From: Rugosibacter sp.
GTDB lineage: Bacteria; Pseudomonadota; Gammaproteobacteria; Burkholderiales; Rhodocyclaceae
Length of the DNA stretch: 10,014 nucleotides
Direction of reading: 5' to 3'
NCBI GenBank assembly: GCA_030652715.1
Contig: JAUSQB010000111.1
Span: 1-10,014, forward strand
In this document: positions 2,010 to 6,934 of the stretch, piece after piece
How positions within the stretch are numbered: the first letter of the stretch is position 1
How the letters are laid out: each line of letters starts with the position of its first letter
Notes under the pieces: generated by a model
The model's database searches: none
What the model saw: only the letters and a program-made list of their open reading frames with translations
What the model was told of the DNA's origin: nothing
Translations under genes and position numbers: made by a program

Positions 2010-2384
2010 ATGAAAACAACCGACTACCTAGACGCCGCCAAGAAAAAGCTAGCCATAAAATCAGATTACGAGCTAGCGAAAAAAATGAATATTCCTAATG
2101 GACAGCTTCCGGGAATGAGAACAGAAAAACGCGCCGTGCCGCTATCTGTAGCCTATTGGCTGGCCATCACGCTAGAGATCGACCCCGCGCAGGTGGTAGC
2201 CGATCTGGAAGCCCAGCGCGAAAAAAATCCCGTCAGGCGGGAATTCTGGAAGTCTTTTCTTTCGCGTGCAGCCAATATCGCCATCCTATTGGCCAGCACG
2301 CTGGCGTTCGCTTTTTCCGCTGGTCTTGGCAACGATCAGGGCGGCAGTGGTGGCCTTTTTAAACGCCGTACGCGGTTCGCATAA
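2010..2384 (+). CDS. DUF3693-family phage regulator with a C-terminal hydrophobic segment
   Basis: The protein has 124 residues. The N-terminal part, TDYLDAAKKKLAIKSDYELAKKM (residues 4-26) through about 65, has the look of DUF3693 phage proteins, which are small helix-turn-helix-like regulators often found beside inovirus replication genes. Residues 87-106 (AANIAILLASTLAFAFSAGL) form a hydrophobic stretch long enough to cross the membrane, followed by a Gly-rich and then basic tail. The start is ATG at 2010, preceded by AAGGA 9 bases away. The gene is divergent from the replication operon and is separated from it by overlapping promoters with three operator-like repeats. A repressor or switch role is therefore likely but inferred. 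Its last codons and TAA lie inside the XerC arm of the dif-like site. Confidence 0.8.
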   Translation: MKTTDYLDAAKKKLAIKSDYELAKKMNIPNGQLPGMRTEKRAVPLSVAYWLAITLEIDPAQVVADLEAQREKNPVRREFWKSFLSRAANIAILLASTLAFAFSAGLGNDQGGSGGLFKRRTRFA

Positions 2385-2401
2385 TTTGCATTATGTAAAA
2401 T
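2374..2401 (+). other. dif-like XerC/XerD attachment site at the phage-chromosome junction
   Basis: The site reads GGTTCGCATAA (XerC arm, 2374-2384), TTTGCA (central region, 2385-2390) and TTATGTAAAAT (XerD arm, 2391-2401). It matches 23 of 28 positions of E. coli dif. One mismatch is in each arm and three are in the central six bases, the part that commonly differs between phage and chromosomal sites. Phage genes lie on the XerC side and chromosomal genes on the XerD side. Filamentous phages such as CTX-phi and the Neisseria Nf phages integrate at dif using host XerC and XerD. A second dif copy should flank the left end of the prophage, outside the window. Confidence 0.85.
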
Positions 2402-2476: not shown

Positions 2477-3253
2477 CTATCCCACAGTATCGCGATAAGC
2501 ATGCCACGTGGCATGCCCCAGCAAGGGAATGATTACTATCATGCCCCACAGCCAGGTTGCAAACCCGATAGCAGTTAGTGTCACCAGCAAAGCGGCCCAT
2601 AAGAACATCGCTGGAACGTTCGCCATAACCGTCCTGACACTGGTCGTCATGGCGGTAATTAAATCTGTGGATCGATCCATTATCATCGGGATAGAGACTG
2701 CGGTAAGTATAAAAACCCCAGCAGCGATGACGCCTCCTACAGCGCCATAGGTCAACAGGAAGGGAGTGCCTCCGGATGTAATCCAGCTGGTCTGATAAAT
2801 GGCACCACTTGCGGCTGGAAGTTCGCCATGGAAATAATCCTTGAAAATCACGGCAGACAGACCAAACCAGATAATGATAGACAGCACAAGAAGCACGGCT
2901 AGTCCAGCTAATCGGTGGGCATTGACCCTTAAGCCATTCAAGGACAACTCGAAACTCACAGGCTGGCCAGATTCTTTGCGGCGGGAGAGTTCATACAGGC
3001 CGGCTGCCATGAGTGGGCTAACCAGCAGAAAGCCGGAAACGGCTGCGGCGAACAAATAGAGGTGATTGCTTGTGAACATCACCACCACCCATCCCATGGC
3101 GGTGATGATCAGGCCATGCCCCAGGCTGGCTGTCAGGCTATATCGCATATCGTCCCACCCCTGACGCAACCAGCGGAATGGACTTAGCAAACCTACTTGT
3201 CGAATAGAAATAGCGTGTTCTGCTTGGAGGGTAGAAACATTTTGTTCGCTCAT
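2477..3253 (-). CDS. DUF2189 family multi-pass inner-membrane protein
   Basis: The protein has 258 residues. It has about five to six hydrophobic segments, near 46-62, 65-87, 115-135, 166-190 and 213-245 (the last may be two). The C-terminal PLLGHATWHAYRD motif (243-255) is the mark of DUF2189 proteins, which are putative integral membrane proteins of unknown function, common in Proteobacteria. The start at 3253 is chosen because GAGGAG lies 6 bases upstream. An ATG at 3337 would add 28 residues of unconvincing, non-hydrophobic sequence and lacks a comparable ribosome-binding site. It is the last chromosomal gene before the dif site and converges with the phage regulator gene. It lies downstream of the CoA-transferase gene with a gap of about 140 bases, so it may have its own promoter. 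Confidence 0.85.
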   Translation of the reverse strand: MSEQNVSTLQAEHAISIRQVGLLSPFRWLRQGWDDMRYSLTASLGHGLIITAMGWVVVMFTSNHLYLFAAAVSGFLLVSPLMAAGLYELSRRKESGQPVSFELSLNGLRVNAHRLAGLAVLLVLSIIIWFGLSAVIFKDYFHGELPAASGAIYQTSWITSGGTPFLLTYGAVGGVIAAGVFILTAVSIPMIMDRSTDLITAMTTSVRTVMANVPAMFLWAALLVTLTAIGFATWLWGMIVIIPLLGHATWHAYRDTVG

Positions 3254-3306
3254 GTCAGTCTCCTCAGACTTTTGTTCGAAGTAAAGACGATCCTCTCCTG
3301 CTATGC

Positions 3307-3327
3307 CAGACAGAAAAAACCTGTCTG
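3307..3327. repeat. 7-bp inverted repeat upstream of the DUF2189 gene
   Basis: CAGACAG (3307-3313) and CTGTCTG (3321-3327) flank a 7-base A-rich loop. It lies 54 bases upstream of the DUF2189 start and 68 bases after the CoA-transferase stop. No T-run follows the stem on either strand, so a regulatory site is as likely as a terminator. Confidence 0.35.
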
Positions 3328-3394
3328 ACACTTTCATCCTACGCCATTTCCATAACGCGAACCATAAAAATGCTGCACTCCCGTGCCCTACCCT

Positions 3395-4723
3395 TTAAAG
3401 AAACCGTCGTGGGAGCAAGCCACTTGTCCGCGCCTGCTTTTCGAGCGATTCGTGATCATCCGGGTGAGCAATGCTGATAAGGGCATTCACGCGTTCTGGA
3501 ATGCTTTTTCCTTTGAGGTTAACCATCCCATACTCTGTCACTACATACATGACATCGGTGCGCGGCGTGGTGATTACGGTGCCAGGCGGGTGCCCTGCCA
3601 CAATGCGTGAACGTGGTTGATCACCTTTCATGTAGCGAGAAGATAGACACATGAAGGATTTACCGCCTTCTGACATGAACGCACCACGTACAAACTGTAG
3701 CTGCCCGCCTGTACCTGTCCGATGTTTGAAGCCTGCGCTCTCGGACGCTACCTGCCCCATCAGATCAATCTGCATCGCGTTGTTAATAGAGACCACCTTG
3801 CGGTTACGCGCAATATTTTCCGTGAGATTTGTCTCATTCACCGGCAAGCTCATGCACATTTCATTGCCGTCAAGGAAGTCATATGTGCTCTTTGATCCTA
3901 AAGCAAAGGTGAAAACTATCTTGCCACGATAGGTGCTTTTACACGCACCTGTCACCTTTCCTGCTGTCACCAGATCGACCATCCCATCAACAAACATCTC
4001 GGTATGAACGCCAAGATTTTTAACGGGCGCATGGGCCAGGGCACCGCAAACCGCATTGGGCATGCCGCCGATACCAATCTGCAGGCATGCGCCATCTTCT
4101 ATTTCCGGAATGATCAAGTTTGCCACTTTGATATCAACATCTGTCACAGGCGCACTGGGCAATTCGGTCAAGGGGGCGTTATCGCCTTGAATAACCGCAT
4201 CGACTTCCGAGATATGAATGACATTTTCCAGGCCGTAGCACGTAGGTAGCTCAGTGCTGGTTTCTACCACCACACGTCGGGCTTTGTCGCATAAGGCGCG
4301 CACATAGCAGTTCGATGCACCGAAGTTGAAATAACCATGTCGATCCATGGGTGTGGTTTTAATGACAGCAATATCCACATCCAGATAATCCTGATACAAC
4401 CTTGGGCCTTCACCAAAGTTAAAGGGGATGTAGCTGGCTACACCATTGTCATATGACTTGCGGTCATGCGCAGAAAAATGCCAGCTCTCGCCATGAAAAT
4501 GACGTTGCTCAGGATCAACTTCCAACACTTTGCGAGGCTTCATGGTCAGAATGCTTCTGATACGCACATCCTCTAGCTGGAGTTTACGTTCTGCCAGTGC
4601 AGCATCAAACACATCCGGCTGATTAAGCGAGGCACCGTAATCGACCGACCAGCCTGATTGAACGATGCTGGCAACCGCAGCCGCAGTTGCCGTTTTTTCT
4701 TGCAGCATTTTTTGCAAATCCAT
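3395..4723 (-). CDS. Acetyl-CoA hydrolase/CoA-transferase family protein (Cat1/4-hydroxybutyrate CoA-transferase type)
   Basis: The protein has 442 residues and is apparently full length for the two-domain acetyl-CoA hydrolase/transferase family. These enzymes move CoA between acyl-CoA and a free acid such as acetate through a glutamyl-CoA intermediate, in the cytoplasm. Visible landmarks are GIGGMPNAV (217-225), HTEMFVDGMVDL (240-251; E242 is the best candidate for the catalytic glutamate by position relative to 4-hydroxybutyrate CoA-transferase), SGFK-like ESAGFKHRTGTGGQ (328-341), FVRGAF (344-349), GGKS (353-356) and TEYGMVNLKGKS (396-407). The ATG at 4723 has AGGAGG 7 bases upstream. It follows nagZ on the same strand with an 80-base gap and does not belong functionally to that operon. 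The substrate cannot be assigned: acetate, succinate, butyrate or 4-hydroxybutyrate all fit the family. Confidence 0.88.
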   Translation of the reverse strand: MDLQKMLQEKTATAAAVASIVQSGWSVDYGASLNQPDVFDAALAERKLQLEDVRIRSILTMKPRKVLEVDPEQRHFHGESWHFSAHDRKSYDNGVASYIPFNFGEGPRLYQDYLDVDIAVIKTTPMDRHGYFNFGASNCYVRALCDKARRVVVETSTELPTCYGLENVIHISEVDAVIQGDNAPLTELPSAPVTDVDIKVANLIIPEIEDGACLQIGIGGMPNAVCGALAHAPVKNLGVHTEMFVDGMVDLVTAGKVTGACKSTYRGKIVFTFALGSKSTYDFLDGNEMCMSLPVNETNLTENIARNRKVVSINNAMQIDLMGQVASESAGFKHRTGTGGQLQFVRGAFMSEGGKSFMCLSSRYMKGDQPRSRIVAGHPPGTVITTPRTDVMYVVTEYGMVNLKGKSIPERVNALISIAHPDDHESLEKQARTSGLLPRRFL

Positions 4724-6199: not shown

Positions 6200-6934
6200 T
6201 TAGTTAATGAGGTTTTTCATTTCACGCACTGCTTCTCGCATGCCCACAAAAACAGCTCGGCTGACAATGGCGTGACCAATATGCAATTCACGAATGTCCG
6301 GTAGTGCAGCAATAGGCTGCACGTTAATGTAGTTAAGCGCGTGCCCGGCATTTAGCCGCATGCCTGCACTGGAAATCGCTTCACCCGCTGCGCGAAGTTT
6401 TGCCAGTTCAACCTTAACGGCTGGGTTGTCTTCATCACGTCCTTGTGCATGAAATGCCAGTGCATAGGGTCCGGTATGCAGTTCGCACACATGCACACCG
6501 ATACGCGCCGCAGCGGCAACTTGGACTAATTCAGCATCAATAAACACACTGGTCTGAATACCCGCTTGAGCCAGACGAGAAACAACCGTGTGCAAGCGCT
6601 GCTCCTGCTCAGCGACATTCAATCCGCCCTCGGTCGTGACTTCATGCCGCCCTTCGGGCACCAGCATGGCCATTTCAGGCTTGATGGCACAGGCAATAGA
6701 AACCATTTCTTCGGTTGCGGCCATTTCAAGGTTTAACTTGATGTGTGTGAGCTCGCGCAAGCGGCGCACATCGTGATCCTGAATATGCCGCCGATCTTCG
6801 CGCAGATGCACTGTGATGCCATCCGCACCGCCGAGTTGCGCTTCAACTGCCGCCCATACGGGATCTGGCTCATAAGTTTGTCGCGCCTGACGAATCGTGG
6901 CGACATGATCGATATTCACACCCAGCTTGATCAC
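6200..6934 (-). CDS. pdxJ: Pyridoxine 5'-phosphate synthase PdxJ
   Basis: PdxJ condenses 1-deoxyxylulose 5-phosphate with 3-amino-2-oxopropyl phosphate to form pyridoxine 5'-phosphate, the last ring-forming step of the DXP-dependent vitamin B6 pathway. The protein has 244 residues and is full length. Motifs are [15 protein letters not shown] (4-18), [11 protein letters not shown] (41-51) with H43, NLEMA with E70, [15 protein letters not shown] (90-104), CELHTG with E151, and NAGHALNY with H198. The start is GTG at 6934, overlapping the recO stop as GTGA. This shows coupling to recO. Confidence 0.97.

Follow-up and report, generated by a model that had tools for sequence, protein, structure and literature searches.

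According to the passages of PMC4246890 that deal with them, VGJphi carries a single 29-base attP that is homologous to dif on its XerC side, and integrates by XerC catalysis, and TLCphi has a near-identical central region and a degenerate XerD arm. The window analyzed here, a stretch of 10,014 nucleotides, is an entire contig (C156) of a draft metagenome-assembled genome. With a probability of roughly 85%, and from sequence comparison, we read window positions 2374–2401 as the single chromosomal dif of a Rugosibacter-like betaproteobacterium, at which an inovirus was inserted by the host Xer recombinases in a VGJphi-like XerC exchange.

The complete site (2374–2401, plus strand) reads GGTTCGCATAA-TTTGCA-TTATGTAAAAT and forms the attachment junction at the right edge of the prophage. 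It comprises an XerC arm (2374–2384, plus strand), a central region (2385–2390, plus strand) and an XerD arm (2391–2401, plus strand). Compared with the E. coli dif sequence, these three parts agree at 10/11, 3/6 and 10/11 positions, respectively (23/28 overall and 20/22 arm bases), and our recount gave the same figures as the first-pass annotation of this DNA. The pattern CGCATAA-N6-TTATGTNAA was searched for in the whole assembly (2,095,759 bases in 498 contigs, 82% complete); the window site was its only match with no mismatches, and the next best two had two mismatches each. At up to three mismatches the pattern occurred at 21 places and a reversed control pattern at 32; therefore, only the exact match is informative. 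No second complete dif was found by this pattern search of the 498 contigs, and exactly one site with no mismatches was present in every one of eight congeners (G001–G008), so that the 28-base layout of XerC and XerD arms around a 6-base center occurs once per chromosome in the window assembly and in the eight congeners. The site is, as the first-pass annotation had proposed, the chromosomal dif, with predicted binding by XerC and XerD. XerC scored above the curated cutoff in the window assembly (contig C35), and XerD did so in eight of the nine genomes of the genus, the sole exception being the 82%-complete window assembly, in which no XerD above the cutoff was found. A 29-base match between window positions 2326–2354 and contig C3 lies away from dif and looks like a chance or compositional match.

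In all eight congeners dif lies 36–115 bases past an ankyrin gene, which is itself preceded by tatD, holB, tmk and mltG-like genes (the ankyrin, tatD and holB identities were confirmed by tblastn), and no phage was found between the ankyrin gene and dif in any of the eight. To the right of dif, the window carries a DUF2189 membrane protein gene (2477–3337, minus strand; PF09955, E = 1.4e-28), an acetyl-CoA hydrolase/transferase family gene (3395–4723, minus strand; PF13336, E = 5.5e-55) and, beyond it, a glycosyl hydrolase family 3 gene (nagZ). The acetyl-CoA hydrolase/nagZ block follows dif directly and without a phage in five of the eight congeners: DUF2189, hydrolase and nagZ adjoin dif in G003, G004 and G005, and hydrolase and then nagZ come after it in G008, with a DUF2189 remnant, and in G006, without DUF2189. 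Other genes occupy the non-ankyrin side in G001 and G002. The empty dif locus that had been anticipated in related strains is therefore present and phage-free. In G007 the DUF2189-hydrolase-nagZ block sits approximately 6 kb from dif, across the ankyrin group from it, suggesting that the terminus region was rearranged. Two DUF2189 paralogues, each containing a single in-frame TAA, were also seen, at G000:C35 3439–4218, on the same contig as xerC, and at G002:C1 180314–181105.

The same alignment bears on the origin of the central bases, which the first-pass annotation had suggested might come from the phage. Among the eight phage-free congeners the central region reads TTTGCA in four (G002, G006, G007 and G008), TTGGCA in two and TTTGTA in two, and the phage-side copy at the other junction (described below) reads TTTGCC. 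By this comparison TTTGCA is native to the genus, with no evidence of phage origin, and the idea of a phage-derived center was abandoned. The proximity of dif to the replication terminus, also part of the original proposal, was borne out in G007, a complete, single-contig genome that was used because the window's own genome is too fragmented. Within the 400 kb around its dif, GC skew was +0.047 before and -0.069 after the site, and the cumulative GC-skew maximum lay 4,161 bases (4.2 kb) from it. GGGNAGGG motifs, which are KOPS-like by the E. coli sequence, were distributed 26:6 before dif and 1:13 after it. Both GC skew and KOPS polarity switch around dif in this one congener over that 400-kb range.

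Inovirus genes fill the window to the left of dif. A phage HTH transcriptional regulator of 124 amino acids (2010–2384, plus strand; phrog_638, E = 4.7e-19; phrog_4441, E = 7.2e-15) ends in ...RTRFA-stop inside the XerC arm. The site had been placed exactly between inovirus and chromosomal genes; the boundary is real, but the site is not simply intergenic because the XerC arm ends with the regulator stop codon TAA (2382–2384). Leftward from the regulator, all on the minus strand, are the single-stranded-DNA-binding protein G5P (1580–1879; PF02303, E = 1.5e-23; phrog_1199, E = 2e-22), a small open reading frame of 82 amino acids (1331–1579) with no Pfam or PHROG match and a relative at 46% identity in the circular inovirus L118, a PAPS-reductase-family gene (540–1268, start ATG at 1268; PF01507, E = 1.2e-8; phrog_424, E = 7.1e-29; PADLOC SspD, E = 8.4e-41) and the first 164 codons of the replication protein G2P (1–492; PF05144, E = 2.9e-5; phrog_702, E = 5.1e-14), which is cut by the contig end. 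The PAPS-reductase-family gene was matched in none of 16 inovirus loci (L109–L124), and its nine IMG/VR relatives are all on contigs of 18–51 kb; therefore, it was probably acquired from larger phages. SspD was its best PADLOC model, with no other Ssp genes in view, and a PDB search with the protein returned nothing at E 0.001.

The opposite end of the phage was located on a second contig, C204, by searching with the ankyrin protein of the congeners. The first 16 bases of C204 (L103 1–16) are the reverse complement of the first 16 bases of the window, its first open reading frame continues G2P in frame, and in L109 and L118 a single gene covers both G2P pieces, which align next to each other on it. 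C204 carries the rest of G2P, a coat protein, a minor protein, a DUF2523 protein and a Zot-like G1P, followed by ankyrin, tatD and holB. The gene set expected of Inoviridae is present, with half of it on C204: Zot-like G1P (PF05707, E = 2.2e-21), coat protein (PF05356, E = 8.4e-8), G5P (PF02303) and G2P (PF05144, both pieces). No integrase, serine recombinase or transposase domain scored above cutoff in the 12 phage open reading frames scanned, and the phage therefore has the character of an Xer-exploiting element (IMEX), integrated at dif with no recombinase of its own recognized; host Xer activity would explain the junctions, as had been suggested. A 90-amino-acid cysteine-rich open reading frame between G2P and the coat gene (L103 771–1043, plus strand) gave a weak transposase zinc-ribbon match below the curated cutoff.

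Between Zot and ankyrin on C204, AGTTCGCATAATTTGC is followed by CGCAAAGTCAAAGG (L103 4491–4518, minus strand). This is a half site, composed of the XerC arm and five central bases (TTTGCC at the phage side) and lacking the XerD arm. Thus, a complete second dif copy on the far side of the phage, as envisaged in the first-pass annotation, was not found, but a half site is present there. Treating the lack of a second dif copy as a refutation would have misfired because at the far end VGJphi-type phages leave no more than a half site. The prophage is approximately 6.9 kb long (6,875 bases if both contigs represent one copy).

The two junctions lie on two contigs joined by 16 bases only, and C204 may come from another host because its chromosomal stretch is unusually divergent from the congeners. 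That stretch has 67.7–70.8% nucleotide identity to all eight congeners (69.5% to G007), whereas G003, G004 and G005 are 80–82% identical to G007 over the same stretch, and C156 is 84–86% identical to G003, G004, G005 and G007. In a sample of 40 of the 498 contigs plus C3 (part), C35, C156 and C204, compared with 1.2 Mb of G007, 15 contigs had hits of at least 400 bases; 13 were mainly at 75–87%, and the outliers were C204 (69.5%) and C220 (66.8% over 864 bases). C204 may therefore come from another host that carries this phage, or its terminus-side stretch may have been replaced. That one phage lysogenized two co-occurring Rugosibacter-like species, with C204 and C156 binned together and contributing one junction each, is a serious possibility to which we give a little less than even odds: the near-equal distance of the C204 holB-tatD-ankyrin genes from all eight congeners, the closeness of the C156 genes to G003, G004, G005 and G007, the contamination estimate of 1.86% for the assembly and the existence of at least one further distant contig (C220) in the sample all fit it, but the overlap at the contig ends is exact and in frame, and the G2P pieces, G5P and Zot were each found once in the assembly. 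Two hosts would alter the claim of one lysogen and not the mechanism, and whichever host C204 belongs to, it shows a phage/dif junction built as predicted. A search of 399 genomes of the order with the carboxy part of G2P matched this genome alone, and thus no other lysogen of this particular phage came to light there. Contig C220 (L178, 17.8 kb) has open reading frames that match G007 at only 27–55% and is possibly foreign to the bin.

The two junctions differ at the first base of the XerC arm, which is A or T in the chromosomal sites of all eight congeners, G in the window and A in C204. This pattern indicates that the ankyrin side keeps the XerC arm of the chromosome and that the window side carries the XerC arm of the phage, and from these arm origins the exchange point would lie at or just after the border between arm and center. 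In the window it is the XerC arm, if anything, that is probably phage-derived (its overlap with the regulator end recurs in the circular relative L118), and the center and XerD arm are probably chromosomal. The implied attP, GGTTCGCATAA-TTTGCCG-CAAAGTCAAAG, has an intact 11-base XerC arm and a 7-base center whose agreement with dif is confined to the XerC side. Its XerD arm is poor and matches the XerD consensus at 7/11 positions with a 7-base center and 4/11 with a 6-base center.

Independent relatives have the same build. No relative was confirmed when IMG/VR was searched with just the window regulator; an alignment of 29 regulator homologues used as the query led to 10 loci, and four of these (L243–L246), which are more distant, have no Xer arm at the regulator end. 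L118, a circular IMG/VR contig with a 127-base terminal repeat, is 68–75% identical to the window phage in G2P, 64% in G5P and 44% in the regulator. At the end of its regulator homologue it carries the attP ACTTCGCATAA-TTGCCCG-TAAAGTAAAGG, in which the XerC arm is CTTCGCATAA and the right half is degenerate. In L238, on a 31-kb contig, three sites are spaced 6,759 bases apart and delimit two phage copies identical at 6,758 of 6,759 positions; in order, the sites are ATTGCGCATAA-TTTGCGA..., ACTGCGCATAA-TTTGCGA... and ACTGCGCATAA-TTTGTA-TTATGTTAAAT. From its sequence, this order is host XerC arm plus phage center, then attP, then phage XerC arm plus full dif, with the same polarity as in the window and on one contig. 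As in the window, the regulators of L237 and L242 end at a full dif. Just past the complete dif of the L238 tandem prophage, an open reading frame (18714–19934, minus strand) resembles another Zot-type ATPase, and a second inovirus may lie beyond. As the window comes from a draft metagenome-assembled genome of 498 contigs, a free phage circle might have been joined by chance to a chromosome end during assembly; we regard such an artefact as scarcely credible, given that both joins fall exactly at a Xer arm/center border, that the chromosomal sides are the genes flanking dif in the congeners and that L238 shows the same anatomy independently.

A center of seven bases also fits the relatives better. 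The 11 + 7 + 11 attP recurs in L118, L238, L239 and L241, where the XerD arm matches at 8, 8, 9 and 8 of 11 positions, respectively, with a 7-base center and at 6, 5, 5 and 4 with a 6-base center. The window phage thus has a single 29-base attP with homology beside the XerC arm but not the XerD arm, as in the VGJphi class, provided that C204 belongs to this phage. A route like that of TLCphi, Cf1c and XacF1, in which XerD acts first and XerC second on a fully homologous 6-base center next to a degenerate XerD arm, is an unlikely alternative. The identical XerC arm, the identity of five of six central bases and the poor XerD arm correspond to attP-TLC as described in the cited part of PMC4246890, and XacF1, too, has its attP in its regulator gene. 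However, the XerD-adjacent base is C in the phage and A in all eight congeners, a XerD-side mismatch that should block a first XerD exchange, and the center reads best as seven bases in the window phage and in L238, L239, L241 and L118. A center essentially identical to that of dif was therefore not observed, although a single mismatch makes this exclusion a soft one. The XerD-side mismatch and the 7-base center favor VGJphi over TLCphi, and we infer a VGJphi-like class from the junction sequences.

The CTXphi route, which in the same source (PMC4246890, in part) is likewise XerC-only and leaves one full dif, would instead use folded single-stranded phage DNA with two inverted dif-like sites and allow no excision. 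No such pair of sites forming a hairpin attP(+) was found in the window phage: the best inverted XerC arm within 200 bases on either side of attP matched at 7/10 positions, a value reached in 73% of shuffles. In L121 and L124, dif-like pairs are inverted within long imperfect inverted repeats, an attP build of the CTXphi type, and the same test detected both as controls (9/10 each, 1.3% and 1.6% of shuffles; inverted repeats with E values of 9e-14 and 2e-14, against a best value of 1.2 for the window phage). We consider a CTXphi-like insertion very improbable.

A single XerC-type exchange, proposed at the outset, remains the best reading of the junctions. In the VGJphi-like reading, attP would lie at the 3' end of the phage HTH regulator gene, and host XerC would exchange one strand pair at the border between XerC arm and central region, with replication or repair completing the event. 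The XerC arm of the chromosome would land on the ankyrin side and be followed by phage sequence, giving the half site, and the XerC arm of the phage would land in front of the chromosome's own center and XerD arm, giving a complete and presumably working dif on the DUF2189 side. We infer that XerC is the sole catalyst, that the substrate is double-stranded, that the event is reversible and that both contigs derive from one lysogen.

The overlap between regulator gene and Xer site appears to be widespread among relatives. The window and L118 regulators both end in F-A-stop, encoded by TTC GCA TAA, which is the end of the XerC arm. Among 86 regulator homologues, window included, 58 end in an alanine that fits the frame with the stop in the arm, 12 have SHN or AHN near the end and 10 have RII or RIM, corresponding to the other two frames of the arm, and six fit none; the protein tails of 80/86 thus point to an Xer site where the regulator gene ends. 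Alanine is the last residue in 62/86, and at positions -2 to -15 it never exceeds 35%. The tails SHNLHYVK and RIICIMLN spell a full dif, and SHNLRLCR spells a degenerate right half. This tally comes from protein tails, in which a terminal alanine can have other causes, and DNA was checked at 12 loci only: the stop lies inside the XerC arm at seven (L237, L238, L239, L241, L242, L118 and the window), the arm is read through in another frame at one (L240) and no arm is present at the four more distant loci (L243–L246). Many relatives therefore appear to share a regulator that ends inside the recombination site. With its stop codon in the XerC arm, the regulator gene should yield an identical protein whether or not the phage is integrated. 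A broader idea, which we put forward tentatively and lean against, is that in a large environmental inovirus family the regulator gene and Xer site form a composite element kept in any frame; the members with the stop in the arm, which would be the majority, would be unchanged and read-through members would gain a new protein tail on integration, so that the anchor would either hide or report the integration state.

These results add a Rugosibacter-like host to those of phages that use the dimer-resolution machinery, and the signature to expect is a complete dif at one phage edge opposite a half site. Such prophages will be missed by any search that requires two full dif copies, because the far end keeps a half site only. 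For phiRSS0 and XacF1, integration has been proposed in print to alter the regulator protein; no such change is expected in the majority of the window regulator's family, and the idea can now be tested by comparing members of the three reading frames. The lifestyle of an inovirus integrated at dif is already known, and the regulator ending within the Xer site is the most interesting feature of this locus.

Like the VGJphi class as presented in the cited part of PMC4246890, the window phage has no integrase of its own recognized, a single 29-base dif-like attP with homology on the XerC side only and one complete dif left after integration. It differs in its host, a betaproteobacterium rather than Vibrio, and XerC-only catalysis is presumed here; its regulator gene overlaps the site. 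It resembles phiRSS0 of Ralstonia solanacearum, a betaproteobacterial inovirus at dif in which a reversed HTH regulator gene (ORF13) carries attP at its 3' end, but ORF13 is reported in the cited portions to change from 156 to 130 amino acids on integration, whereas the window regulator, with its stop in the XerC arm, should stay unchanged (PMC3816273, PMC4471427). XacF1/Cf1c of Xanthomonas likewise integrates at dif by host XerC/D with attP in a regulator gene (ORF12) and a 15-base core of XerC arm and central region; unlike the window regulator, ORF12 of XacF1 is split by integration, as far as these accounts describe (PMC4076744, PMC5666396). This class is placed under TLCphi, with XerD acting first, in the corresponding section of PMC4246890, whereas the center of the window phage differs from dif on the XerD side. 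The enterobacterial phage UPphi901 is likewise integrated at dif as a tandem prophage, and its repeats agree with dif over no more than roughly the first fifteen bases, like the half site on C204; in the portion of the report cited, no regulator overlap is described (PMC7307601).
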